A stretch of 64,000 bases of DNA from Brooklawnia cerclae. Its GTDB lineage: Bacteria; Actinomycetota; Actinomycetes; Propionibacteriales; Propionibacteriaceae. Under the pieces are notes generated by a model. The model was not told the DNA's origin, ran no database searches, and worked only from the letters and a program-made list of their open reading frames with translations. The stretch is taken from assembly GCF_011758645.1 (NCBI RefSeq), contig NZ_JAAMOZ010000001.1:2046001-2110000 (forward strand). Direction: 5' to 3'. Of this stretch, positions 35,989 through 63,276 are shown in pieces (position 1 is the stretch's first letter; every line of letters begins with the position of its first letter). The position numbers and the translations under genes were made by a program.

Positions 35989-36038
35989 TGGTCGGGGCGA
36001 CAGGACTCGAACCTGCGGTCTCCTGCTCCCAAAGCAGG
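35989..36038 (-). other. attL: 3' fragment of tRNA-Pro(TGG) at the prophage left end
   Basis: Read on the minus strand, CCTGCTTTGGGAGCAGG forms a complete anticodon arm with TGG. It is followed by the T arm GCAGGTTCGAGTCCTGT, the acceptor 3' side and CCA. The D arm and 5' acceptor strand are absent. The integrase starts 48 bp away. The phage therefore integrated into a tRNA-Pro gene, and the restored complete tRNA should lie at the right end, outside the window. Confidence 0.88.
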
Positions 36039-36085: not shown

Positions 36086-37162
36086 TCACCCTTTCAGCAC
36101 CCGCCGATTCATCCGATCGGACACCGCGTCCAGCCCAGAATCCCAGAGGTGACCGTAAACGTCCAGCGTGGTCGTCGCGGACTTGTGCCCCGCCATGCGC
36201 TGCACCGCCTTGACGTCCGCGCCGTCGGCGATCGCCCACGAGATCGCCGTGTGCCGCAGATCGTGGATGCGCAGCTCCGAATCGTCCATGCCGGACGCCT
36301 TGAGCGCCTTCGTCCACGCCCGCGCCCGGAAGGTGTCCTTCCTGATCCTGTGTCCGAGCGGCGTCACGAACAGCGGATCGGTCTTCGGCCTGTCGAGATT
36401 CAGCATTGCCACCACCTTCGCAGGAACGGGCACGTCACGCGGCCTCTCGGACTTCGAGACGACGATTCGAGCCCTCCACACATCTTTTCCCTTGACCTTG
36501 CGCCGCACGACGCTGCCGACGTCGAGCGCCACCACCTCGCCGATGCGCGCTGCGGTGGTCGCCATGAACCAGATCATCGGCGCGTACCAGCCATCTAGCC
36601 GCTTGTCCGCGCGACGGTCCCGCCCCCAACCGTGACAGTTGGACGCGATCGCTCCAACCTGCTCCCGTGTCAGATAGACGGGCTCGTGAGGCTCCTCTGC
36701 CGGAGTCGTCAGGTCGACGCACGGAGAGGTCTCGATGGACTTGCGCCGCACCGCGATGGCCATCGCTCCCCCGAGACACTGCGAGAGCTTGTGCAGCCGG
36801 GACGGCGAGCCCGTCTCCGCGTTGAGCCATGCCTGGACGGCGGACTGCTCCACATCGGCCACCAGCATGCTCCCCCACCTGCTGCGGACGGCGCGAGCAG
36901 CGTCCCTCGCAGCCTCGACGCTCTTCGGCGCGAGGCTCCGTTTGGACTCCAGCCACAGGTCGATCATGTCGCCCACGGTGTCGCTGGACTTCGGCGTCGG
37001 CGGCCCGTCGGCGATCCGCCGGGCGTTGACGTACTCCGCCTCCCTGTAGGTGCGGTGCGACGTGTCTCGGTAGCCCTCGACGCGCACGCGGTACCGCATG
37101 CCCCGGCCGTGACGCTTGGTCGGAGTGCCGTCCTTGCGTGTCCACAGGTCGTCGATGGCCAT
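36086..37162 (-). CDS. int: phage tyrosine integrase
   Basis: This 358-aa tyrosine recombinase has an N-terminal arm-binding domain, a SAM-like core-binding domain (about 60-150) and a catalytic domain. Catalytic residues are visible in TAARIGEV (Arg), HDLRHT (His-x-x-Arg), the GHKS segment (His) and LDVYGH (Tyr nucleophile). It lies next to the tRNA-Pro attachment site and drives integration and, with an excision factor, excision. Confidence 0.96.
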   Translation of the reverse strand: MAIDDLWTRKDGTPTKRHGRGMRYRVRVEGYRDTSHRTYREAEYVNARRIADGPPTPKSSDTVGDMIDLWLESKRSLAPKSVEAARDAARAVRSRWGSMLVADVEQSAVQAWLNAETGSPSRLHKLSQCLGGAMAIAVRRKSIETSPCVDLTTPAEEPHEPVYLTREQVGAIASNCHGWGRDRRADKRLDGWYAPMIWFMATTAARIGEVVALDVGSVVRRKVKGKDVWRARIVVSKSERPRDVPVPAKVVAMLNLDRPKTDPLFVTPLGHRIRKDTFRARAWTKALKASGMDDSELRIHDLRHTAISWAIADGADVKAVQRMAGHKSATTTLDVYGHLWDSGLDAVSDRMNRRVLKG

Positions 37163-39509: not shown

Positions 39510-39793
39510 GCATGACGCCCGGCTACGGGCACTGAACTTTCGCGGCCTGGCAGGGCTAGGCAAGGCGTGGCACGGCAGGGCACGGCAGGGCAAGGCATGG
39601 CATGGAAGGTCGCCAGAGCGGCACACTCCGGGGTTCGGGTCCCCGGCTGGCACTGTCCTGGGCATGGCACGCCAGGGCTGGCCCCGGCAGCGGCTCGGCT
39701 GGCCGCCGCAGGGCGAGGCAAGGCAAGGCAAGGAACCAAACGAAGGCCCGGCGCTCGCAACGCCGGGCCTTCACATTGTCGAAAGGAAACCCC
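39510..39793 (+). other. gene-free region with GGCA-type low complexity and a strong hairpin
   Basis: About 60 bases from 39548 consist of GGCAx units in tandem (GGCACGGCAGGGCACGGCAG and similar), and again near 39715-39735. A tRNA T-arm-like hairpin CGGGG-TTCGGGT-CCCCG is at 39629-39645, preceded by a D-arm-like GCCAGAGCGGC. A perfect 12-bp stem follows: GAAGGCCCGGCG (39742-39753) with its complement at 39761-39772. It lies just before the next ribosome site and may be a terminator or attenuator. Confidence 0.6.
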
Positions 39794-40371: not shown

Positions 40372-40989
40372 ATGCCCCCATTCGAGCCCCTCGGCGAGTT
40401 CTCGCGCCGCAATCTCGCTCTCGGCGTCCTGCGCGGGCACGCGACCGGCGATGTGGTCGGCTACGACGAGTTCGGAGACGCTCTCGACCTGCATCCAGAT
40501 GTCAACCGCAAAGTCATTCAGGACGCCGTCCGAGCAGCCGGTACCGAGTTCTTGGATGTGGACAGGCAGGCGCTGGAGGCCGTGCCGAACGTCGGCTACC
40601 GCATTGTCCCAGCGAGCGAGCACGTGCGGCTTGCGCGTGGCTTGCAGCGCCAATCGTCACGCGCGCTGGTTCGCGGGCACACAGTCGTTGCGAAGGTCGA
40701 CTACAACGCGCTGAGCCCGGAGGTCCGCGCGCTCACCGAAGCCACCGCGCGGGCGTTCGCCGCGCAGATCGAGTTCAACCGCCGCATGGACGTGCGGCAA
40801 CAGCGCCTCGAAGAGGCCGTGGCAACGGTCGCCACCAAGCAAGAGCGATCGGACGACGAAGTTGCCGAGCTGCGCGAGCGGCTCGCGCGACTGGAGGCAT
40901 CCATCGCGGGAGAACAGGAGCATAGCAATGACACTCATCCCATTCGACTACAGCGGCCAGCAGGTCCGCGTCATCAATCTCCACGGTGA
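40372..40989 (+). CDS. phage protein with winged-helix-like N-terminus and coiled coil
   Basis: This 205-aa protein has an N-terminal part (residues 1-85) that looks like a small nucleic-acid-binding domain, then a long helical coiled coil (about 115-185). A GAGGGAGG site supports the ATG at 40372 over the GTG at 40366. Its end overlaps the antirepressor gene by 62 bases in another frame. No known family. Confidence 0.55.
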   Translation: MPPFEPLGEFSRRNLALGVLRGHATGDVVGYDEFGDALDLHPDVNRKVIQDAVRAAGTEFLDVDRQALEAVPNVGYRIVPASEHVRLARGLQRQSSRALVRGHTVVAKVDYNALSPEVRALTEATARAFAAQIEFNRRMDVRQQRLEEAVATVATKQERSDDEVAELRERLARLEASIAGEQEHSNDTHPIRLQRPAGPRHQSPR

Positions 40990-41752
40990 GCCCTGGTTCG
41001 TCGCCAAGGACGTGTGCGAGATCCTTGACATCCGCACCGATACGTTGCGGTACATCCTCGACTCTGACGAGGTGCGAAGCATCAACCCCAACAGTATTGG
41101 GGTTGCTCAGACGGGCGGCAAGGACCCGCTCATTGTGTCCGAGCCTGGCGCATACAGTCTCATTGCTCGCAGCCGCAAGCCAGAGGCCAAGCCGTTCAAG
41201 CGCTGGGTCAACCACGAGGTGCTCCCCTCGATCCGCCGGACCGGCTCATACGGCACGCCCGCGCTGTCCGAGGACGAGATCGTGCACCAGGCGCTCGCGA
41301 TCACAGCCAAGCGGGTCGAGGCCTTGACCGCCACCGTCGAGCACCAGGAACGGCGTCTGCGCCTCGTCGAGCCGAAGGCCGCCGCGTTCGACCGGTGGCT
41401 GTCGTCGAACGTCAACTACGCGGTCGACCGGGTCGCGAAAGCGCTCCGGGCCGCAGGTGCTATCACCGGCCGCAATCGCCTGCTCGACCACATGGGCACG
41501 CGGAAGAAGGACGGCGGGCTGGAGTGGATCTTCCGCGACGCCCGTGGGCAGTGGACGCCGTTCCAGGCGCAGGTCGAGTGTGGACGCCTCGCCGTGAAGT
41601 TCGGCAGCTACGAGGACTCGAAGACCGGCGAGCAGGTAGGCACCACGACCGTGCGCATCACCCCGAAGGGAGCGGCGAGGCTCGCCGCCGTCTACAACGT
41701 CTCGCCCGAAACCATCGCCGACGAGCTCGAAAGGGACGCCGATGCTGCCTGA
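40928..41752 (+). CDS. phage antirepressor (Bro-N plus KilA-C)
   Basis: This 274-aa protein has an N-terminal Bro-N domain (VINLHGEPWFVAKDVCEIL) and a C-terminal KilA-C-type domain with LLDHMGTRKKDGGLEWIF and TTVRITPKGAARLA. Such proteins disable the repressor or bind DNA during lytic growth. The ATG at 40928 follows a GGGAGAACAGGAG leader. It supplies a second input to the lysogeny decision besides ImmA. Confidence 0.88.
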   Translation: MTLIPFDYSGQQVRVINLHGEPWFVAKDVCEILDIRTDTLRYILDSDEVRSINPNSIGVAQTGGKDPLIVSEPGAYSLIARSRKPEAKPFKRWVNHEVLPSIRRTGSYGTPALSEDEIVHQALAITAKRVEALTATVEHQERRLRLVEPKAAAFDRWLSSNVNYAVDRVAKALRAAGAITGRNRLLDHMGTRKKDGGLEWIFRDARGQWTPFQAQVECGRLAVKFGSYEDSKTGEQVGTTTVRITPKGAARLAAVYNVSPETIADELERDADAA

Positions 41753-41993
41753 ACGCCTGGACCTGACCGGATTCGCCGAGATCCCCGGCGATCCCGCCTA
41801 CCGCATCCACCCCGACGGCAGGGTGGCCAGCCTCAAGAAGACGCTTCCCGCAGTGCTCACCGAGCGCAGGGCGTCCAATCCGAGACTGTCCACCGTCCGC
41901 CTCGGCGGCGTCGACGTGCGAGTCCGCGACCTGCTCGTCGCCGTCTTCGGGACCGCCCACGACTACTACGAACGGATCGAGGACTGGTCATGA
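41742..41993 (+). CDS. small phage protein with NUMOD4-like segment
   Basis: This 83-aa protein contains EIPGDPAYRIHPDGRVASLKK, similar to NUMOD4 motifs found in homing-type HNH nucleases. No nuclease domain follows, so it may be a stand-alone DNA-binding module. It overlaps the antirepressor gene and the next gene. Confidence 0.55.
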   Translation: MLPERLDLTGFAEIPGDPAYRIHPDGRVASLKKTLPAVLTERRASNPRLSTVRLGGVDVRVRDLLVAVFGTAHDYYERIEDWS

Positions 41994-42732: not shown

Positions 42733-43607
42733 GCACCCTCATCGACGCGCCGGGCGTCTACGACGGCCTGGACGAGGAGGTCTACCACGCCGATCCGGTG
42801 CCGTCCGGCTCTCTGTCGTGCACGTGGGCCAAGCAGATCGTCAAGCCCGGCGGCCCGGCGAAGTGGAAGTGGGACTGCGAGCACCCCCGCCCGCCAAAGA
42901 AGGAGTTCGACCTCGGGCACGCCGCTCACAAGCTCGTCCTGGGCGTCGGCGCGCCTCTCACCGTGATCCCCTACGACGAGTGGCGCACCAAGGAGGTGAA
43001 GGCGGAGGTCGCCGAAGCTCGCGCGCGCGGAGAGATCCCCCTCAAGCCCGCCGAGTACGAGCAGGTGCAGCGGATGGCCGAGCAGATCGCCGCGCACCAG
43101 CTGGCCATGAGCCTGCTCGACGGAGCGCGGCATGAGGTGTCGGCGTTCCGTGTGGACGAGCAGACCGGGGTGTGGCTCCGGTGCCGGTGGGACTCGATCA
43201 AGGCGGACGGGATCGCCGACTACAAGACCGCCGTCTCCGCCGACCCGGCAGAGTTCGCCCGGCAGGCCGTCAAGCTCGGCTACCACCAGCAGGACGCGTG
43301 GTACTGCGACATGGCGCGCGCCCACGGCGTCACCGATGGGCCTTTCCGGTTCATCGTCCAGGAGAAGGCGGCTCCGTACCTGGTGTCCGTGATCGAGCTC
43401 GACGAGGACACCGAGCGGCTCGGCAGGCGCATGAATCGCCAAGCCATCGACACCTACGCCAACTGCCGGGCCACCGACCAGTGGCCCGGCTATCCGCCGG
43501 TCGTGAACATCGTCTCCGCTCCGCCATGGGCCTTCGAGACTCCCGACACGCTCGACCCCGACACCGAACAAGAACTCCTTGACCTTTTGGAGGGACCCCA
43601 GTCATGA
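42729..43607 (+). CDS. RecE-like PD-(D/E)XK exonuclease
   Basis: This 292-aa protein matches phage exodeoxyribonuclease VIII-like (DUF3799/PDDEXK) enzymes. The start VYHADPVPSGSLSCTWAKQI and the block DLGHAAHKLVLG are typical. WDSIKADGIADYKTA carries the metal-binding Asp and the catalytic D-x-K. It chews one strand of duplex DNA so that RecT can anneal the other. Its stop overlaps the recT start. Confidence 0.85.
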   Translation: MSTLIDAPGVYDGLDEEVYHADPVPSGSLSCTWAKQIVKPGGPAKWKWDCEHPRPPKKEFDLGHAAHKLVLGVGAPLTVIPYDEWRTKEVKAEVAEARARGEIPLKPAEYEQVQRMAEQIAAHQLAMSLLDGARHEVSAFRVDEQTGVWLRCRWDSIKADGIADYKTAVSADPAEFARQAVKLGYHQQDAWYCDMARAHGVTDGPFRFIVQEKAAPYLVSVIELDEDTERLGRRMNRQAIDTYANCRATDQWPGYPPVVNIVSAPPWAFETPDTLDPDTEQELLDLLEGPQS

Positions 43608-45165: not shown

Positions 45166-45368
45166 CCCGCCTGCCCCTCCGCCCCAGCGACCGCCCCACG
45201 CCACCCCCGGCGTGGGGCGCACTGTTCCCGGGCCTGGCGGTCCTCGCCGTGGCCTCTGCCGTCCTGGGCCTGCACGGCCTCACCGTGGCCGCGTGTGTGG
45301 CTCTCATCCTCGCTGCCAGCCTGCACGGGCTGGCGACTGATCCCCGAACCGAAAGGACCCCGAAGTGA
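45162..45368 (+). CDS. small phage membrane protein
   Basis: This 68-aa protein has two hydrophobic helices (about 18-36 and 39-57) and charged ends. It overlaps its neighbours on both sides by four bases. Unknown function. Confidence 0.5.
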   Translation: MTRLPLRPSDRPTPPPAWGALFPGLAVLAVASAVLGLHGLTVAACVALILAASLHGLATDPRTERTPK

Positions 45369-46384
45369 AGGCCTACAAGGGATTTTCTAAAGACATGACG
45401 TGCCGTGGCTTCCAGTACGCAGAGGGCGAGACTTACACCACCGACCGCGCCGTCCTGTGCGAGACCGGCTTCCACGCCTGCCCGGAGCCGCTGGACGTGC
45501 TGGGCTTCTACAAGCCGGGAAAGAGCGTCTATCACGAGGTCGAGCTGGGTGACGACGCCAAGCTGGATGGCAGCAAGGCCGTCTCGACGGCGATTTACAT
45601 CGGCGCGAAGATCAGCATCGCCGGACTCGTGAAGGCGCACATCGATATCGCGTGGAAGCGGGCGAACAAAGAGCCCAAGAATACGACCTCGGGCTACTAC
45701 TCGACGGCTGCGACCTCGGGCTACTCCTCGACGGCTGCGACCTCGGGCAACGACTCGACGGCTGCGACCTCGGGCAACGACTCGACGGCTGCGACCTCGG
45801 GCCACTCCTCGACGGCTGCGACCTCGGGCAACGACTCGACGGCTGCGACCTCGGGCAACGACTCGACGGCTGCGACCTCGGGCTACTACTCGACGGCTGC
45901 GACCTCGGGCAACTCCTCGACGGCTGCGACCTCGGGCTACTACTCGACGGCTGCGACCTCGGGCTACTACTCGACGGCTGCGACCTCGGGCCACTACTCG
46001 ACGGCTGCGACCTCGGGCTACTCCTCGACGGCTGCGGCCTCGGGCTACTACTCGACTGCTGCGGCCTCGGGCTACTCCTCGACGGCTGCGACCTCGGGCT
46101 ACTCCTCGACGGCTGCGACCTCGGGCAACGACTCGACGGCTGCGACCTCGGGCCACTACTCGACTGCTGCGACCTCGGGCGATGAGTCTGTCGCCGTCGC
46201 CGCCGGATACCAGTGCTCGGCCAAAGGCACGGCAGGAAACTGGCTCGTGCTCGTCGAACGCGACACCACGGGCCACATCCTCGGCGTCGTGTCGGTCAAG
46301 ATCGGCTCCAAACGCAAAGGCAAGCGGATCAAGCCCGACACCGCATACATGCTCGTCGGCGGAGAGCTGGTGGAGCGGCCATGA
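45365..46384 (+). CDS. DUF7666-type protein with 18 nine-residue repeats
   Basis: This 339-aa protein has three parts. Residues 1-109 (KAYKGFSKDMTCRGFQYAEG) match the DUF7666 type of phage protein. Residues 110-271 are 18 units of GxxSTAATS. The C-terminal part AGYQCSAKGTAGNWLVLVER closes the repeat stack. The repeat resembles a beta-solenoid with Tyr/Asn/His at the variable spots. It probably forms a rigid rod or binding surface. Function unknown; the repeats are nearly identical at DNA level. Confidence 0.75.
   Translation: MKAYKGFSKDMTCRGFQYAEGETYTTDRAVLCETGFHACPEPLDVLGFYKPGKSVYHEVELGDDAKLDGSKAVSTAIYIGAKISIAGLVKAHIDIAWKRANKEPKNTTSGYYSTAATSGYSSTAATSGNDSTAATSGNDSTAATSGHSSTAATSGNDSTAATSGNDSTAATSGYYSTAATSGNSSTAATSGYYSTAATSGYYSTAATSGHYSTAATSGYSSTAAASGYYSTAAASGYSSTAATSGYSSTAATSGNDSTAATSGHYSTAATSGDESVAVAAGYQCSAKGTAGNWLVLVERDTTGHILGVVSVKIGSKRKGKRIKPDTAYMLVGGELVERP
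45692..46177 (+). repeat. 18 tandem copies of a 27-bp repeat
   Basis: The unit is GGCTACTACTCGACGGCTGC followed by GACCTCG. Copies differ mainly at the two codons after GGC (TAC TAC, TAC TCC, AAC GAC, CAC TAC and so on), while the silent positions of the rest stay the same. This points to recent expansion by slippage or recombination. Units 13 and 14 carry GCC in place of ACC. Confidence 0.95.
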
Positions 46385-46575
46385 GAACCGTCACCACCAC
46401 ATATCAGCCCGTCTACGTCCGTGCGGAAAAGACCCCGTACGTCGCGGTCAAGAACGGCCGCCAAGGCCTATCCGTCGAACTGAAACGCTCCTACTGGGAA
46501 GAGGCGACCCGCGTCATGGAAGACCTCGACTACCAACTCGGCATTCCGTCCCTGTTCGACGGAGGTGCCGCATGA
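46381..46575 (+). CDS. small phage protein (64 aa)
   Basis: A 64-codon frame is coupled to both neighbours (ATGA overlaps). It has a beta-rich start (VTTTYQPVYVRAEKTPYVAV) and a helical end. No family is recognised. Confidence 0.5.
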   Translation: MRTVTTTYQPVYVRAEKTPYVAVKNGRQGLSVELKRSYWEEATRVMEDLDYQLGIPSLFDGGAA

Positions 46576-47685: not shown

Positions 47686-47906
47686 GCTACTACACGCCGA
47701 CCGACGATGAGATCCGGGCGTCCACGACGAGGCTCGGCGCATGGAGCGGGGACGCCTACGACCGGTGGCTGGCCGCCCACGACGCTGCACTACGGAAGTC
47801 GATCGCGGCGGCCATCGAGGACTGCAACGACCACTGCCACGACCAATGGGACGAAGCGATCACCCTCGCCGCCAGCATCGCTAGGGGTGAGCCGCCGACC
47901 ACATGA
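47670..47906 (+). CDS. small phage protein (78 aa)
   Basis: The ATG at 47670 follows AAGGAGG. The 78-aa product is helical with many Asp and His residues (IEDCNDHCHDQWDEAI). Its stop overlaps the ATG of the DUF4406-like remnant. Unknown function. Confidence 0.5.
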   Translation: MADYVSYYTPTDDEIRASTTRLGAWSGDAYDRWLAAHDAALRKSIAAAIEDCNDHCHDQWDEAITLAASIARGEPPTT

Positions 47907-47992
47907 TCACCTACATCGCAGGACCCATGACAGGCCTCCCGGACCTCAACCGGGAGGCCTTTTTCGTGGCCGACCAGAGAAAGGAGACAAGC
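47903..47992 (+). pseudogene. 5' remnant of a DUF4406-like (deoxyribosyltransferase-related) gene
   Basis: The first 30 codons read MITYIAGPMTGLPDLNREAF, the typical start of phage DUF4406 proteins, but then run in frame into the Cas6e-like gene. The rest of a DUF4406 domain is missing. This suggests that the CRISPR-like cassette replaced or interrupted such a gene. A translational fusion adding 30 residues to Cas6e is the alternative. Confidence 0.55.
47933..47964 (+). terminator. intrinsic terminator at the left edge of the type IV cassette
   Basis: GGCCTCCCGG (47933-47942) and CCGGGAGGCC (47950-47959) form a perfect 10-bp stem with a 7-nt loop, followed by TTTTT. It lies 29 bp before the Cas6e start, which would set the cassette apart from upstream transcription. 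Confidence 0.8.
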
Positions 47993-48589
47993 GTGGACGG
48001 CATCGTCCTGACAAGACTGTCCCTCACGCCACAAGGCATGCGCGTGCCGATCAGGGAATGGCACACCGTCATCGCCACCTCATCGAAGAACACGTCCGGG
48101 GACAGAGCACTGTGGGCGTGGCCCGACCGGGCCACCATCCTCGTGCAATCCCCGGCGCCGGGCATGCTCACCGACATGCTCACCGGCCTGGCGACCGTCA
48201 CAGCCAGCGAGCCACGCCGCACCGCGTTCCCGGCCGGGGCCAGAGTCCGGGTGTCCGGGCTCCTCAACCCGACGAAGACGAAGTGGGTGTACAACGACGA
48301 GCGCGTCCGGGTGAAGATGGCGCGCGGGCTGGTTCCCGAGAGTGAGTGGCCCGAGTGGGTTGCTGCTCGTCTCGATGGGGCACTGTCCGGGCTCGACGTC
48401 ACCTGCCAGCGACTGCCCACGGTGCGGGCCGTCAAGCCGGGCCACGTCATCACCATGGCCAGGATGGCGTTCAGCGGCACCGCCACCGTGGATGACCCGG
48501 TCGTCCTCGACCGCCTGATCCGCGCCGGTATCGGCAAGGAGAAGGCGTACGGGTGCGGCCTGATCCTGGTCGACGGGGTGACGCCATGA
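47993..48589 (+). CDS. Cas6e-like CRISPR RNA endoribonuclease
   Basis: This 198-aa protein follows the CasE/Cas6e plan: VLTRLSLTPQG at the N-terminus, a candidate catalytic His24 in REWHTVIA, LVQSPAP, RVSGLLNPTKTKW, and the C-terminal glycine-rich loop GIGKEKAYGCG (179-189) before GLILV. In type I-E, Cas6e cuts the repeat hairpin to make guide RNAs. The GTG at 47993 follows AGAAAGGAGA at good spacing. It overlaps the next gene by four bases. Classic type IV-B loci usually have no Cas6. Confidence 0.88.
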   Translation: MDGIVLTRLSLTPQGMRVPIREWHTVIATSSKNTSGDRALWAWPDRATILVQSPAPGMLTDMLTGLATVTASEPRRTAFPAGARVRVSGLLNPTKTKWVYNDERVRVKMARGLVPESEWPEWVAARLDGALSGLDVTCQRLPTVRAVKPGHVITMARMAFSGTATVDDPVVLDRLIRAGIGKEKAYGCGLILVDGVTP

Positions 48590-49347
48590 CCGAGACCTCG
48601 TCCACACGGCTCGTCTGGGATCTGGCCGGGCGACCGCGGATCACCGCACCGGGGACGGCCGCACACCTCAAGGACTCCCCGGGCGTGTGCGCGATGTGCG
48701 GCCACGACTCGCCGGTCACAGCGAACGCGGACCGGGCGCTCGGGAAGAACTTCTCCGACCAGGGGCATCTCCAGCGCCACGACAGCCCGGACATCTGCCC
48801 GGCATGCCTGTGGTGCGCATCTGGCAAGCCGCCGAACACGCTTCGGATGTGGACGATCGTCGCCTCACCTGGAGCCGATCTCCCGGACTCGCAGCCCAAG
48901 GCGTTCCTCCAGGACACTCCCGGGCTGTGCCTCACCTCACGGGCCAGCACGCGGCCGGTCATCGACATACTGGCCGACCCGCCGTCCGGGGACTGGCTCG
49001 TCTCTGTGGCGCTGTCCGGGCAGAAGCATGTGCTGCCGTTCGCTGCGGTCAACCACGGCAGCGGACAGTGGACGGTGCGGGTCGAGGACCACAGCGTCAC
49101 CGCCACCCCGGCCCAATGGCGCCAGGTCCACGCCTGCACCCTCGGCCTGCGCAGACTCGGCGTCCCAGCCGAGGCCGTCATGGCCGGGGAACCCCAGTAC
49201 GTCAAGACCCCCGACCAGCTCGCCGCATGGCGGGACCTCAACGCCGGGCTGCTGCCGTGGCTCGGCTCACCACTCCTGGAGCTCGCGCTCTGGACGATCA
49301 CGAAGGACATCACCAATGACACAGCCACTTACCCTGCTGACCGCTGA
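48586..49347 (+). CDS. csf1: Csf1-like zinc protein (type IV large-subunit analogue)
   Basis: This 253-aa protein has a four-cysteine zinc site, C35-x2-C38 (CAMCGH) and C71-x2-C74 (CPACLWC), separated by about 32 residues. This is the signature of Csf1, the reduced Cas8-like subunit of type IV. The assignment rests on this motif, the size and the gene order (cas6-csf1-cas11-csf2-csf3). The remainder is mixed alpha/beta. The end overlaps cas11 by 32 bases. Confidence 0.75.
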   Translation: MTETSSTRLVWDLAGRPRITAPGTAAHLKDSPGVCAMCGHDSPVTANADRALGKNFSDQGHLQRHDSPDICPACLWCASGKPPNTLRMWTIVASPGADLPDSQPKAFLQDTPGLCLTSRASTRPVIDILADPPSGDWLVSVALSGQKHVLPFAAVNHGSGQWTVRVEDHSVTATPAQWRQVHACTLGLRRLGVPAEAVMAGEPQYVKTPDQLAAWRDLNAGLLPWLGSPLLELALWTITKDITNDTATYPADR

Positions 49348-49720
49348 CGACCTCGACGACATCACCGTCGACCTGGTCTTTGCCCTGCGCGACTCCCTCA
49401 CCGAGGATGTGTCCCGCCTCGACTTCTGGCAGGGACGCGCAGCCACCGCCATCGAGACCGCAGCCGCCGGTGGAGAGGCGTGGCCCCAGGCTGTCACGAT
49501 CGCCGCCCGCAAGCTCCAGATCCCCCAGCTCGCGCTGGAGGCATCCAAGACCATCACCAAGCTCGGCGGGCGCATCGAGGGCCACTACAGCCAGTGGCAG
49601 GCCCACGTTGCCCGCAACCTCGTCTACATCGTCGCCCTGGCCAGAGTCGAGAACACCAGCCGCAAAACCCCCAAGCCCGACCCCGAACCGACCACCGACA
49701 CCGAAGAGGCAATCTTCTGA
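49316..49720 (+). CDS. cas11: Cas11-like small subunit
   Basis: This 134-aa, almost wholly helical protein has four to five helices (DDLDDITVDLVFALRDSL; WPQAVTIAARKLQIPQLALE; YSQWQAHVARNLVYIVALAR) and a disordered Pro/Thr/Glu tail. Small subunits are very variable, so this call leans on position between csf1 and csf2. In the known IV-B complex, Cas11 lines the Cas7 filament. Confidence 0.65.
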   Translation: MTQPLTLLTADDLDDITVDLVFALRDSLTEDVSRLDFWQGRAATAIETAAAGGEAWPQAVTIAARKLQIPQLALEASKTITKLGGRIEGHYSQWQAHVARNLVYIVALARVENTSRKTPKPDPEPTTDTEEAIF

Positions 49721-50598
49721 TGACCACCACCATCATCCCTGCCCAGCAGGAGACCATCAACTACACCGCCACACTGCTGTCGCCGTTCCACCACGGTGCC
49801 GGGAACTCCGGAAACACCGCCCTTCTGCGCACCCAGGACGTCGCCCAGCCCGACGGGACGGTCGCCCAGGTGCCGTTCCTGTCGGCCGCCTCCATCCGCC
49901 ACGCCCTGCGCGACCGGATCGCCTGGCATCTCGTGTCCACCCTCGACCTGCGCCCGCCGGCGGTCGTGTGGTCGAAGCTCGGCGTCGATCTGCTGTGGAC
50001 CGGCGGGTCAGTCACCTCCACCGGCGCTGAGGTCGACCTCGGCATGGCCCGGCGTGTTGAGGAGGTCTTCCCGGCGCTCGCCCTGTTCGGGTACTCGGCG
50101 CACTCCGACATCGTGTCCGGGACGCTGCGGGCCTCCGACGCCATCCTGGTGTGCCGGGAAAACCAGTGGCGGATCCCTGGAGCGCCGGACACCAAGCCCG
50201 CCGCAGCATGGCGGGGCGAGGAGTTCGGCACCCGCCACGACGTGGCATCCACGCCCGTCGCCACCCTGCTGGAGCAGGCCGACACCCTGCTCGGCTCCAC
50301 CGTGAAGACCACCCAGATGATCTTCGACACCCAGGTGCTCATCGCCGGGGCGTCGCTGTCGGGACAACTCGCCCTCCAGCACGGAGCCACCGCCGCACAC
50401 CGCACGGTCCTGGGTGCCGCGCTCGCACTGTGGGCCCCCGGCGGCGAGGCGCTCCTCGGCGCCAAGACCGCCCAGGGATACGGCCGGGCTGCCATCGCCG
50501 GGCTGCCCGATACCAGCGCCGACCTGGCGGCGTGGACCGCCCACATCGCCGACCGGCGTGACGACATCCTCCAGCTGGTCGAGGACCTCACGAGATGA
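49720..50598 (+). CDS. csf2: Csf2, Cas7-like backbone protein of type IV
   Basis: This 292-aa RAMP protein has the Cas7 start LLSPFHHGAGN (20-29) and the PFLSAASIRHALRD block (52-65), equivalent to the IPGSSLRGALR motif of Cas7/Csm3. Next come ALFGYSAHSDIVSGTLRAS and a C-terminal glycine-rich stretch, GGEALLGAKTAQGYGRA. It should polymerise along a guide RNA. Its ATG shares a base with the cas11 stop. It is the clearest Cas gene in the locus with Cas6e. Confidence 0.85.
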   Translation: MTTTIIPAQQETINYTATLLSPFHHGAGNSGNTALLRTQDVAQPDGTVAQVPFLSAASIRHALRDRIAWHLVSTLDLRPPAVVWSKLGVDLLWTGGSVTSTGAEVDLGMARRVEEVFPALALFGYSAHSDIVSGTLRASDAILVCRENQWRIPGAPDTKPAAAWRGEEFGTRHDVASTPVATLLEQADTLLGSTVKTTQMIFDTQVLIAGASLSGQLALQHGATAAHRTVLGAALALWAPGGEALLGAKTAQGYGRAAIAGLPDTSADLAAWTAHIADRRDDILQLVEDLTR

Positions 50599-51221
50599 GC
50601 GAGGCCCAGCCGATGGCCATCACCGCGTTCCTCACGAGCGCGGTGGTGGGCCTGGAGCGCGGCGTCATTCTCGACGGCCCGCTGTCGTACACGTGGGCGG
50701 CTCTGGCGGCTGCGTCGGGCCGCCCCCTGCCTCCGATCCGGGACGACTTCGTTGCTCCCATCCCGATGCCGTTCCGGCGGTGGGAGATGGGGGGCACATG
50801 GGGGTGGTGCTGCTCGAAGGGCACCGAGCACATCCTCAAGTGGACCGCCGTCGAGGTCCGCCGCAAGCCCGCCACCGACGCCATGGCCATCTTCACCGAC
50901 CTCGCGAAGCATCACGCCGGACTCGGCCCGACCAAGGCCCGCAACACGACCCTGTCGGCCCGGATCGCCACAACGATCCGCTGGGACGCGCTGGTCACCG
51001 ACCAGGCCGAGCTGCACCGGCTGCTGGCGGCGACCACCAACATTTCCGCCCGCCACCGCAACGGGTTCGGGCAGGTGGTCAAGTGGCTCGTCGAGCCGTC
51101 CCACGATACGGACGGATGGCGCAGACGGCCCCTGCCCGCACCGGGCGGGGAGATGCTGCCCGTCCGCCCGCCCTACTGGCACCGCACCACCTGGGCGCCC
51201 TGCGAAAGCCCTGCGGCATGA
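50595..51221 (+). CDS. csf3: Csf3, Cas5-like protein of type IV
   Basis: This 208-aa protein starts with the Csf3-like motif GVILDGPLSYTWAALAA (23-39), followed by PIPMPFRRWE. It ends with a glycine loop, RHRNGFGQVVKWLVE (153-167). Csf3 caps the guide RNA 5' handle. It overlaps csf2 by four bases. Confidence 0.8.
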   Translation: MSEAQPMAITAFLTSAVVGLERGVILDGPLSYTWAALAAASGRPLPPIRDDFVAPIPMPFRRWEMGGTWGWCCSKGTEHILKWTAVEVRRKPATDAMAIFTDLAKHHAGLGPTKARNTTLSARIATTIRWDALVTDQAELHRLLAATTNISARHRNGFGQVVKWLVEPSHDTDGWRRRPLPAPGGEMLPVRPPYWHRTTWAPCESPAA

Positions 51222-51454
51222 CCGTCCGCCAGCAGATATGGGACTGGCTGCCCGCACGCCGGGACCGGCGCCGCACCACCGTCGCGCCGGTGATCGCCGC
51301 CGAACTCGGCCTGCCGGTCAGCCTCGTGGCCGCCACCCTCCTCGACATGGAGCGTGGCGGCCACGTCGTCCACGACCGGCGTGGCTCCTGGCACCGGGGC
51401 GTGCCGCTCACCAAACCAGCACCAGACCAACCGGAGGAGGGATTGTGGGACTGA
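51218..51454 (+). CDS. winged-helix DNA-binding protein within the type IV cassette
   Basis: This 78-aa basic protein starts MTVRQQIWDWLPARRDRRRT and has a winged-helix pattern (VAPVIAAELGLPVSLVAATLLDMERGG and a GSWHRG wing). It lies between csf3 and the CysH-like gene, with overlaps on both sides. It could regulate the cassette or be an accessory subunit. No standard type IV name applies. Confidence 0.6.
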   Translation: MTVRQQIWDWLPARRDRRRTTVAPVIAAELGLPVSLVAATLLDMERGGHVVHDRRGSWHRGVPLTKPAPDQPEEGLWD

Positions 51455-52215
51455 TCGACTCGCCAAGATTCAAGCCCCAAGACCTCGCAGCGTGGAAGAA
51501 GCTCGAACGCTACGACGCGGCATTCTCGGCTTTGCCGTCATGGGCCGGGCGCGAAGAAAGAGCCCGTAAGACGATACGAGATTTCGCGTCGGCGGGCGGA
51601 TGTTACGCGTCGACGTCTTGGGGGAAAGACTCGACATGTGTCGCATTTCTGGTGGCAACCAGCGGCGTAAGGTTACCGCTGGTCTATGTGCGTATGCGGG
51701 CCTGGGAATCTCCGGAATGCCTCCAGGTCAGAGACGCGTTCTTGGCACGATACGGCGACGCGGTCGACTATCACGAATACGTCGTGGACGGCGGCATCCG
51801 CTGGTGGCAGACCGCCGAGGCGTCAGCCTTGAAAAGGCGCAGTGGTTCCCATGTCGGCGGCCAGTTCTCCGAGCCGGAGGGCGAGTTCGGGGCTCGGCAT
51901 ATCACCGGAATACGGGCCGAAGAATCGGATATCCGCGACCTCGTCGTCAGGCGGTGGGGCGAGGCCGGGCCGAATGCTTGCCGTCCCATAGCGCGCTGGA
52001 CCGCAATCGATGTGTTCGCGTTCCTGCACCGTCACGACCTGCCTATCCATCCTGCCTATGCCATGAGTTTCGGCGGGCTCATGGATCGGCGATGGCTCCG
52101 AGTTTCCCCCATCGGCGGAATCAGCGCAGCGCACAAGAAGCGCGCCGACTGGGAATCCGCCTACTACCCCGACATCGTGCGCAAAACCCCCGAAGAGATC
52201 GGAGACATGTCATGA
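51445..52215 (+). CDS. CysH-like (PAPS reductase family) protein of the type IV-B cassette
   Basis: This 256-aa PP-loop ATPase-superfamily protein has the STSWGKDS motif (56-63), GIRAEESDIRD and ARWTAIDVFAFLHRHDLP, all typical of the CysH fold. The Cys-rich ends of assimilatory sulfonucleotide reductases (ECGLH or CCxxRK types) are not evident. Type IV-B loci nearly always carry such a gene, with unknown function. The GTG at 51445 follows GGAGGAGGG. Confidence 0.85.
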   Translation: MGLIDSPRFKPQDLAAWKKLERYDAAFSALPSWAGREERARKTIRDFASAGGCYASTSWGKDSTCVAFLVATSGVRLPLVYVRMRAWESPECLQVRDAFLARYGDAVDYHEYVVDGGIRWWQTAEASALKRRSGSHVGGQFSEPEGEFGARHITGIRAEESDIRDLVVRRWGEAGPNACRPIARWTAIDVFAFLHRHDLPIHPAYAMSFGGLMDRRWLRVSPIGGISAAHKKRADWESAYYPDIVRKTPEEIGDMS

Positions 52216-59700: not shown

Positions 59701-59946
59701 GTGAGCGCTGAGACCAAGGCCCGCCTGCAAGAGGCGATCCACGAGCACATGGCCGACGAGTACGACGCCCAGTGCGTCGGGGCATGGCTGGTCATCGCGG
59801 ACACCTCCGACGTCGACGACCTCACCAAGGGCAACGCCCAGGTGCAGATCGAGTTCGCCGGATCGATGTTCACCATCCGGGGGCTCGCCGAGGCCTACCG
59901 CGCGCTCGACGACCGGACCTGGAACCAGCCCGACCCGGACGACTGA
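59701..59946 (+). CDS. small phage protein (81 aa)
   Basis: This 81-aa protein starts with a GTG after AGGAGG. It has a helical start (AETKARLQEAIHEHMADEYD) and a following beta sheet. Unknown function. Confidence 0.55.
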   Translation: MSAETKARLQEAIHEHMADEYDAQCVGAWLVIADTSDVDDLTKGNAQVQIEFAGSMFTIRGLAEAYRALDDRTWNQPDPDD

Positions 59947-61791: not shown

Positions 61792-63276
61792 ATGGCGAAG
61801 CACGCAAATCAGTCCCCCACCCTGGACGACCTCGCCGCAGGCTACGAGTCGACGATCGCCGTCCTCCAGGAATCCCTGGCCGATGTGCAGCGCGTCATGG
61901 ACCGCGACAATCTCGGCTGGATGGAGCTGTCCGTCCTCAACGACGGCGGCTTCGACGCCGACTTCCGCCGTAGGCAGGCGGCACGCATCCTCGTCGCCGC
62001 CACCGCGAACCCGATCATCAAGCGCGGCCTCGCGCTGCGCGGGGCGTTCGTGTGGGGCGGCGGGGCGGCCATCACCGTCCGCGACACTCCAGACCAGGGG
62101 CAGGACGTCGGAGCCGTCGTGCAGGCGTTCCTCGACGACCCGCAGAACCTCCCCGTGATCGTCGACACCGACGCCCGCATCGGGCTCGAACGCGACCTCG
62201 GGATCGTCGGTGAGGTCGTGCTGTGCCTGCCGACCGATCCGGTCACCGGACGCGTCCGCGTCCGCAAGATCAAGCCCGACCAGATCACCGGCATCCGGGT
62301 CGACCCCGAGGACGACGCCGCCGAGCAGCTGTATCTTCGCCAGTGGTCCACCGCGGGCACCGCCCAGCCGATGAAGGCATGGTACCCGGCGATCAACTAC
62401 CATCCGTCCCAGCAGCCCGGCGAGATCGATGGCGCACCGGTCATGTGGGACCAGCCGATCAGATTCGTCCGTGTGAATCAGGTGGGAGACCGTGGCGTCG
62501 GCGACGCGTTCGCCGCCGTGCCGTGGGCCGACGCCTACAAGCGCTTCCTGGAGGACTGGGCGCAACTCATGCGCTCACTGTCCCGCATCGCCGTCCAGCT
62601 CCGCACCCGGGGCGACAAGACCGCGCAGGCTGCCGCCCGCCTCGCCAGATCCGCGCAGGGCGACGCCGGGCAGGGTGTAGCCCTCGACCCGACCAGCCAG
62701 CTCGAAGCCGTCTCCACCTCAGGTGCCCGGTTCGACGCCGACTCCGGCCGCCCGCTCGCGGTTATGGCTGCCGCAGCCCTCGACCTGCCTGTCACCACGC
62801 TGCTCGGCGATCCTGGCGTCACCGGTGCCCGGGCGGTTGCCGAGCAGGTGTCCGACGACTCCTGGGCGGCGTTCGACGTGCGCCGCGACCTGTGGCGCAA
62901 CGTCCTGCGCGACATCTGCGGATACGTCATCGACTCAGCGGTGACCGCGCCTGCGGGACCGCTGCGCGGCACCGTCACCCGTGACGGGGACCGCCAGCGC
63001 ATCGAGCTTCCCGACGGCGACGGGTGCACCGTCGAGATCGAGTTCCCGAAGCGGGTCAGCGATTCGGTCCTTGACCGCATGAAGGCGATCCAGATCGCCG
63101 GACAGTCCGAGACGCTGCCGCCGCTGCACGAGCTGCGCATGTACCTCCAGGCCCTGGACGTCAAGGACGCCGACGAGATCATCGACGCCGTCACCGACGA
63201 GGACGGGAACTTCATCCCCCTCGACGTGCTCGACTCCCGCGTCCGCCAGATGATGACCGAGCGGGGCGAAGCGTGA
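61792..63276 (+). CDS. phage portal protein
   Basis: This 494-aa protein lies between terL and the head morphogenesis gene, the usual portal slot. It has a wing-like N-terminus, LARSAQGDAGQGVALDP and a conserved GDPGVTGARAVAEQVSDDSW block before the C-terminal helices. Portal rings form the DNA entry and exit gate. The call combines location and motif pattern. Confidence 0.8.
   Translation: MAKHANQSPTLDDLAAGYESTIAVLQESLADVQRVMDRDNLGWMELSVLNDGGFDADFRRRQAARILVAATANPIIKRGLALRGAFVWGGGAAITVRDTPDQGQDVGAVVQAFLDDPQNLPVIVDTDARIGLERDLGIVGEVVLCLPTDPVTGRVRVRKIKPDQITGIRVDPEDDAAEQLYLRQWSTAGTAQPMKAWYPAINYHPSQQPGEIDGAPVMWDQPIRFVRVNQVGDRGVGDAFAAVPWADAYKRFLEDWAQLMRSLSRIAVQLRTRGDKTAQAAARLARSAQGDAGQGVALDPTSQLEAVSTSGARFDADSGRPLAVMAAAALDLPVTTLLGDPGVTGARAVAEQVSDDSWAAFDVRRDLWRNVLRDICGYVIDSAVTAPAGPLRGTVTRDGDRQRIELPDGDGCTVEIEFPKRVSDSVLDRMKAIQIAGQSETLPPLHELRMYLQALDVKDADEIIDAVTDEDGNFIPLDVLDSRVRQMMTERGEA

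Follow-up and report, generated by a model that had tools for sequence, protein, structure and literature searches.

Cas6e at the head of a prophage-borne type IV-B operon: a possible means of capturing the type I-E guides of the host

Type IV-B CRISPR-Cas loci are described as having neither an array nor a crRNA-processing enzyme (PMC8175902, PMC7937560). The function of the subtype and the RNA it carries have been open questions since its description, and a role as sponge or scavenger was already proposed (PMC8175902). For the only IV-B complex that has been tested, that of Mycobacterium sp. JS623, which has no Cas6 of its own, no enrichment of I-E crRNAs was reported with I-E Cas6 supplied (PMC7937560). 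Here we describe a phage-borne operon of this kind which begins with a gene for Cas6e. The stretch of 64,000 nucleotides of Brooklawnia cerclae DNA that was analysed is called the window, and its features are collected in Table 1.

The operon is carried by a 49.2-kb prophage on contig C1, which is bounded at both ends by a 49-bp direct repeat, is integrated in tRNA-Pro and also encodes terminase, portal, tape-measure and endolysin proteins. A second prophage with the same operon is found on contig C3. The proteins from Cas6e to Csf2 are 98-100% identical between the two copies. The comparison of the C3 copy (G000:C3:227597-230199) with window positions 47993-52215 gives only 74-81% identity for csf3, the small gene and cysH, a contrast that suggests recent recombination within the operon. 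At the right end of the C1 prophage several small ORFs adjoin HTH_31 and ROS/MUCR genes (L029:17584-19919, equal to C1:2127584-2129919), a type of position that is typical of acr-aca cassettes.

Table 1. Features of the csf-bearing prophage within the window. Mismatches and the dinucleotide directly 5' of the site are given for the protospacers.
Feature	Position	Strand	Remarks
Left attachment repeat, 49 bp	35990..36038	+	right copy C1:2131184 in tRNA-Pro, beyond window
Prophage integrase	36086..37162	-	phrog_1 3e-53
Protospacer of spacer 19, in integrase gene	36306..36338	-	0 mismatches, AA
Protospacer of spacer 20	39537..39569	+	0 mismatches, AA
Protospacer of spacer 17	40413..40445	+	0 mismatches, AA
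Protospacer of spacer 11	41162..41194	-	0 mismatches, AA
Protospacer of spacer 16	41837..41869	+	0 mismatches, AA
Protospacer of spacer 13	43569..43601	+	0 mismatches, AA
Protospacer of spacer 4	46537..46569	+	2 mismatches, AA
Terminator-like hairpin and T run, in DUF4406 gene remnant	47933..47959	+	differs from I-E repeat
cas6e, divergent Cas6e endoribonuclease	47993..48589	+	GTG start with RBS; Pfam/PADLOC, alignment, model and fold search
csf1 (Cas8-like large subunit, type IV)	48586..49347	+	PADLOC typeIV_Cas8 1.6e-36, TIGR03114 7e-7
Protospacer of older spacer 121, in csf1; matches C3 prophage alike	48871..48903	-	2 mismatches, AA
Protospacer of older spacer 96, csf1/cas11 junction; matches C3 prophage alike	49317..49349	+	3 mismatches, AA
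cas11-like small subunit, type IV-B/C	49319..49720	+	PADLOC typeIV_Cas11 2.5e-44
csf2 (Cas7 backbone)	49714..50598	+	PADLOC typeIV_Cas7 1.7e-93
csf3 (Cas5-like)	50595..51221	+	PADLOC typeIV_Cas5 9e-26, TIGR03116 4e-12
Small operon gene	51218..51454	+	weak winged-helix similarity
cysH-like PAPS-reductase-family gene, type IV-B hallmark	51442..52215	+	Pfam PF01507 3.8e-8
Protospacer of spacer 12	59731..59763	+	0 mismatches, AA
Protospacer of spacer 10, in portal gene	63084..63116	+	0 mismatches, AA

The first gene encodes a genuine Cas6e, supported alike by family profiles, by the predicted fold and by the catalytic histidine, and the reading of this ORF given in an earlier note, made from the letters of the window, is thereby borne out. 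The protein matches the Pfam family CRISPR_assoc (PF08798) with 66 bits at a cut-off of 25 and the PADLOC Cas6e profile with 1.3e-21. It reaches only 31.9 bits against the NCBIfam equivalog TIGR01907, which is below the curated cut-off of 45.2, and is therefore regarded as a divergent member. The AlphaFold model has a pLDDT of 88, and its best Foldseek matches are the Cas6e/Cse3 proteins of E. coli and T. thermophilus (E 5.9e-13, TM 0.72). In the alignment His24, Gly179, Gly181, Ala185, Gly187 and Gly189 are invariant in all eight phage Cas6e proteins, and the same histidine and loop residues are also invariant in comparison with one host type I-E Cas6e. His24 and the glycine-rich loop, which the earlier note had seen as retained, are thus kept throughout the phage proteins, and a loss of catalytic residues is not seen in the alignment. 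The predicted activity is the cutting of RNA at a repeat hairpin of the I-E type. Since the phage protein is only about 25% identical to the I-E Cas6e of its host, recognition of the host repeat is to be regarded as putative. That the phage recently acquired the cas6e of its present host is rejected, as phage and host proteins group separately in the tree.

The GTG at 47993 is preceded by the ribosome-binding site AGAAAGGAG. The upstream in-frame ATG at 47903 is part of the remnant of a DUF4406 gene and not the start of cas6e; the first approximately 25 codons of that gene (window 47903-47975) are fused in frame to cas6e, as is likewise the case in the C3 prophage.

Seven tightly packed genes in the order cas6e-csf1-cas11-csf2-csf3-small gene-cysH make up the operon (47993-52215). 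The csf2 product matches Csf2 of the JS623 IV-B complex (PDB 7jhy, 8e-7). The cysH-like product contains the PP-loop SWGKDST in the alignment, and the position of its gene 3' of csf3 is conserved in the relatives. PHROGs knows only Csf2, Csf3 and CysH among the operon genes. Profile searches recognised no nuclease among the operon genes and gave no match to DinG among the operon proteins searched. With csf1, csf2, csf3, cas11, a cysH-like gene and no array, the locus corresponds to type IV-B; the stated absence of a crRNA-processing enzyme from that subtype (PMC8175902) does not apply, because the operon begins with cas6e both here and in its relatives. The operon is therefore regarded as a variant of IV-B, judged by its gene content probably a new one, and Cas6 may have been mentioned in connection with IV-B before. 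Neither a DinG match among the operon proteins nor an own array of the phage was found, which rules out type IV-A, and an own type I-E system of the phage is ruled out because I-E Cas7e and Cas1 are confined to the host locus.

The earlier note had found no CRISPR array in the phage part of the window, and we likewise found none in the whole window. Nor does the remainder of the prophage contain one, which speaks against an array elsewhere in the phage as the source of guides. The sole short-period repeats in the prophage are coding, with a tandem unit of 27 bp at about 45.7-46.2 kb; they lie in a gene (45365-46384) with about 18 tandem repeats of nine residues (TSGYYSTAA), which adjoins an exonuclease gene and matches phrog_4433, a family of unassigned function in PHROGs. 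The hairpin 5' of cas6e at 47933-47959 had been named as another possible guide source. It consists of an 11-bp stem with a T run directly behind it, is unlike an I-E repeat and is not conserved 5' of other cas6e genes. Being terminator-like and not conserved, it was rejected in that role. It falls inside the conserved GLPDLNREAF motif of the DUF4406 remnant.

Single repeats resembling those of the host were also searched for. The best candidate in the window prophage differs from the host repeat at 10 or more of 28 nt, and in four prophages, each compared with its own host (L090 left out), no unit with fewer than 8 mismatches per 28 nt was found. A solitary host-like repeat of the Racr type in the prophage is ruled out by this search. 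In L090, another csf phage, the 5' end of cas6e has a hairpin similar to an I-E repeat, GTGTTCCCCGCCATCATGCGGGGCTAAAACCC (L090:7407-7438), whose score is the highest of its kind among all csf loci scanned. It is possible that this is an autoregulatory or Racr-like element.

Approximately 0.4 Mb from the prophage, on the same contig, the host encodes a type I-E locus with cas3, cse1, cse2, cas7e, cas5e, cas6e, cas1 and a cas2-like frame, which is followed by the array. The genes from cas3 to cas1 are full length, which on the sequence appears to rule out a broken host system. The array (C1:2496461-2506777; L025/L026) comprises about 170 repeats of GTGCTCCCCGCGTAGGCGGGGATGATCC and 169 spacers; host repeats have the I-E stem-loop in common. 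Spacers 90/100 and 102/103 are apparent duplicates, judged by identical match lists, and several spacers are directed against the C3 prophage. The search beyond the window that the earlier note had proposed thus led to a host array on the same contig and to no dedicated phage array. Its suggestion that the guides come in trans from a host I-E array is now favoured by the complete locus and by the presence of I-E in four of the four examined hosts with csf and Cas6e; the use of this array by the phage is what we infer. The earlier note had missed the complete csf operon (48586-52215), the large host array and the self-targeting described below.

The spacers were compared with the genome stretches taken, at a limit of four mismatches. 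Nineteen of them match the region of the C1 prophage, 12 without any mismatch, and all the matched sites are located between window position 36306 and C1:2129704, that is within the prophage. Each of the 12 perfect protospacers has the PAM AA directly on its 5' side, a dinucleotide with a frequency of 1.8%. The 12 perfect spacers are all among the 21 nearest to cas2 out of 169 (p about 4e-13), and because of this clustering spacer acquisition is considered active and recent. Matches of older spacers to the prophage are either imperfect or next to a wrong PAM, and two fall within csf1 or at the end of this gene. On contig C3, 12 host spacers find a match and one of these is perfect. A 100-kb chromosome stretch and shuffled spacers, which served as controls, gave no matches at the same limit, and none were obtained at up to five mismatches in 80 kb surrounding another terminase gene in a prophage-like region. 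The pattern resembles what primed adaptation would leave behind, with old imperfect spacers and a later burst of perfect ones.

At least one self-targeting spacer is present in about 20% of CRISPR-bearing bacteria (PMC10810201), a background frequency that counts against a special explanation. Here the prophage persists with its protospacers and PAMs intact next to unbroken host cas genes. Unless the I-E system is silent, interference must be blocked in trans by something. If the assembly represented a mixture of strains, array and prophage could be placed in different cells; both are on one shared 2.9-Mb contig of a 6-contig assembly, which speaks against this. With regard to the same concern, the genomes of Cutibacterium porci and Phytoactinopolyspora limicola discussed below carry strain names.

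Relatives were reached via alignments of Csf1 and CysH; neither tblastn with Cas6e in phage records nor scanning IMG/VR for Cas6e returned any. The combination of csf genes and Cas6e is present in a prophage of C. porci (L061/L076), in P. limicola (L075/L079), in the host genome G575 and in the viral contigs L030/L078, L077, L090 and L091. No array was found beside the operon in those relatives that were examined. One I-E spacer of C. porci perfectly matches its own csf prophage, with an AA PAM and on the cas2 side. Three spacers of P. limicola match its own csf prophage without mismatch and a further two differ from it at one position; all five have the AA PAM and are on the cas2 side. Both genomes encode almost full-length relatives of cas3 to cas1. 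None of the 10 readable spacers of G575, whose array is situated in assembly gaps, match. Perfect self-targeting of a prophage with csf and Cas6e is therefore tolerated in three hosts.

The elements of C1, C3, C. porci, P. limicola and G575 have in common the csf operon proteins and one small gene of the virion region (68065-68424, counted from the window start). In this five-element comparison the small gene of the operon was recognised by similarity in the prophages of C3 and C. porci and not found in P. limicola and G575; L030 has a similar gene as well. The tape-measure protein is common to all compared elements except G575. Cas6e is the least conserved operon protein, with 23-30% identity outside C3 versus 45-71% for CysH, which fits a tracking of differing host repeats and is only suggestive. 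I-E Cas7e is encoded in all four genomes with csf and Cas6e versus 43 of the 197 genomes of the window's family, and the four family members with csf and without detectable Cas6e (4/4) have neither I-E Cas7e nor Cas1. For this association of Cas6e with I-E, Fisher's test gives p = 0.03, a value uncorrected for relatedness. A counter-example is Mycobacterium JS623, which combines a Cas6-less IV-B with I-E (PMC7937560).

The csf operon and the self-targeting together point to counter-defence. We propose, with belief and doubt in balance, that the array-less IV-B complex uses its Cas6e to take guides which the host I-E array supplies in trans and thereby blocks I-E. In the lysogen the phage Cas6e would bind and probably cut the I-E repeat hairpins of the host, and Csf1, Cas11, Csf2 and Csf3 would assemble on the crRNAs so produced. 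These crRNAs would be diverted from host Cascade, which would be starved, into a complex without a recognised nuclease, so that the host I-E system would be unable to destroy the prophage in spite of its perfect spacers. The operon would then be an anti-CRISPR made from a whole CRISPR effector. This presumed anti-CRISPR role is suggested by a genomic signature, the perfect and tolerated self-targeting in three hosts. The JS623 result mentioned above counts against capture; a dedicated Cas6e that could hand over crRNAs is what the JS623 operon lacks. The wider statement, that in a family of temperate actinobacterial phages a complete, nuclease-free IV-B complex with its own Cas6e captures I-E crRNAs and so makes the host memory harmless or protective, which would be the first IV-B function and the first whole-effector anti-CRISPR, is made tentatively, with doubt slightly ahead of belief.

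The main rival to crRNA capture is that every prophage has a small Acr of its own. In Xanthomonas albilineans the explanation given for extensive self-targeting by intact type I systems was the presence of small Acr proteins (PMC10810201), and at the right end of our prophage the small ORFs next to the HTH_31 and ROS/MUCR genes are candidates for such genes; however, no match to an Acr family was obtained among those scanned, and only the csf genes and the small virion-region gene are common to all compared phages. If each prophage carried an unrelated conventional Acr, or if the I-E system was silent, csf and Cas6e would do something else, such as non-specific RNA binding, as the binding of heterogeneous RNA by the JS623 IV-B complex might indicate (PMC7937560), or a CysH-dependent modification. 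The kept-active Cas6e and its association with I-E hosts would then be left unexplained, and we consider this whole explanation rather unlikely. A different benefit would arise if the complex used I-E crRNAs to silence rival phages and plasmids without a nuclease, to the advantage of host and prophage, the tolerance of self-targeting being incidental. Type IV-A complexes silence their targets without a nuclease and CRISPR-associated transposons (CASTs) take host crRNAs in trans (PMC11656645), and the host spacers are mostly directed against mobile elements. The known IV-A silencing needs DinG, however, for which the searched operon genes gave no match, and with many host guides matching the prophage the complex would bind its own genome too, so that silencing of competitors appears distinctly improbable.

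It is also conceivable that Csf proteins loaded with self-matching crRNAs occupy the protospacers of the prophage and block Cascade and Cas3, in which case the most self-targeting spacers would protect best. That perfect, PAM-intact protospacers are kept unmutated and that the operon has no recognised nuclease would agree with such shielding, but it requires a putative binding of dsDNA by Csf at the same PAM, and the IV-B complex resembles a type III complex (PMC7937560); we give it little credence. No better is the chance that the main substrate of Cas6e is a hairpin in phage RNA and not host crRNA, either for autoregulation or as a solitary-repeat RNA anti-CRISPR. Hairpins are located 5' of cas6e in the window and, in a form resembling an I-E repeat, at the 5' end of the L090 gene, but the former is terminator-like, unlike the repeat and missing in most relatives, and the tested prophages contain nothing closer than 8 mismatches to the host repeat.

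Capture of host guides, if true, would explain the missing guides of type IV-B and add a new kind of anti-CRISPR, a CRISPR effector turned by evolution into an anti-CRISPR weapon. The combination of an active-looking Cas6e with IV-B, I-E hosts and survived self-targeting in three genomes constitutes a natural test case for the scavenger hypothesis.

Among known systems, the operon is most like the IV-B locus of JS623 (PDB 7JHY), with csf1, cas11, csf2, csf3 and a cysH-like gene and without array, adaptation genes or a recognised nuclease. It differs in starting with Cas6e, which is kept in eight phages or elements, and in being phage-borne and not megaplasmid-borne. Plasmid type IV-A3 systems with Cas6e likewise combine Csf proteins with a Cas6-type maturase and need the host I-E in trans, in their case the adaptation machinery; they have an own array and DinG, neither of which is present here, whereas Cas11 and CysH are found here. 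The virus-borne IV-B of the archaeal Fuxiviridae also has CysH, was proposed to act in counter-defence and is targeted by a host spacer (PMC10848311). That locus includes a mini-array, in contrast to ours, and PMC10848311 mentions no Cas6. Racr RNA anti-CRISPRs (PMC10651486) interfere at the step of Cas6/Cas7 and repeat RNA, as is proposed here. They act as decoy repeat RNA, while in our case a protein complex would take host RNA and the prophage has no repeat unit. The Cas-derived anti-CRISPRs AcrIB3 and AcrVIA2 (Katz 2024, as far as covered by the review PMC13131331) are Cas homologues encoded by phages which inactivate the CRISPR system of the host, in one case by crRNA depletion. Those are single proteins, whereas the operon described here encodes a putative whole multi-subunit effector together with its maturase.
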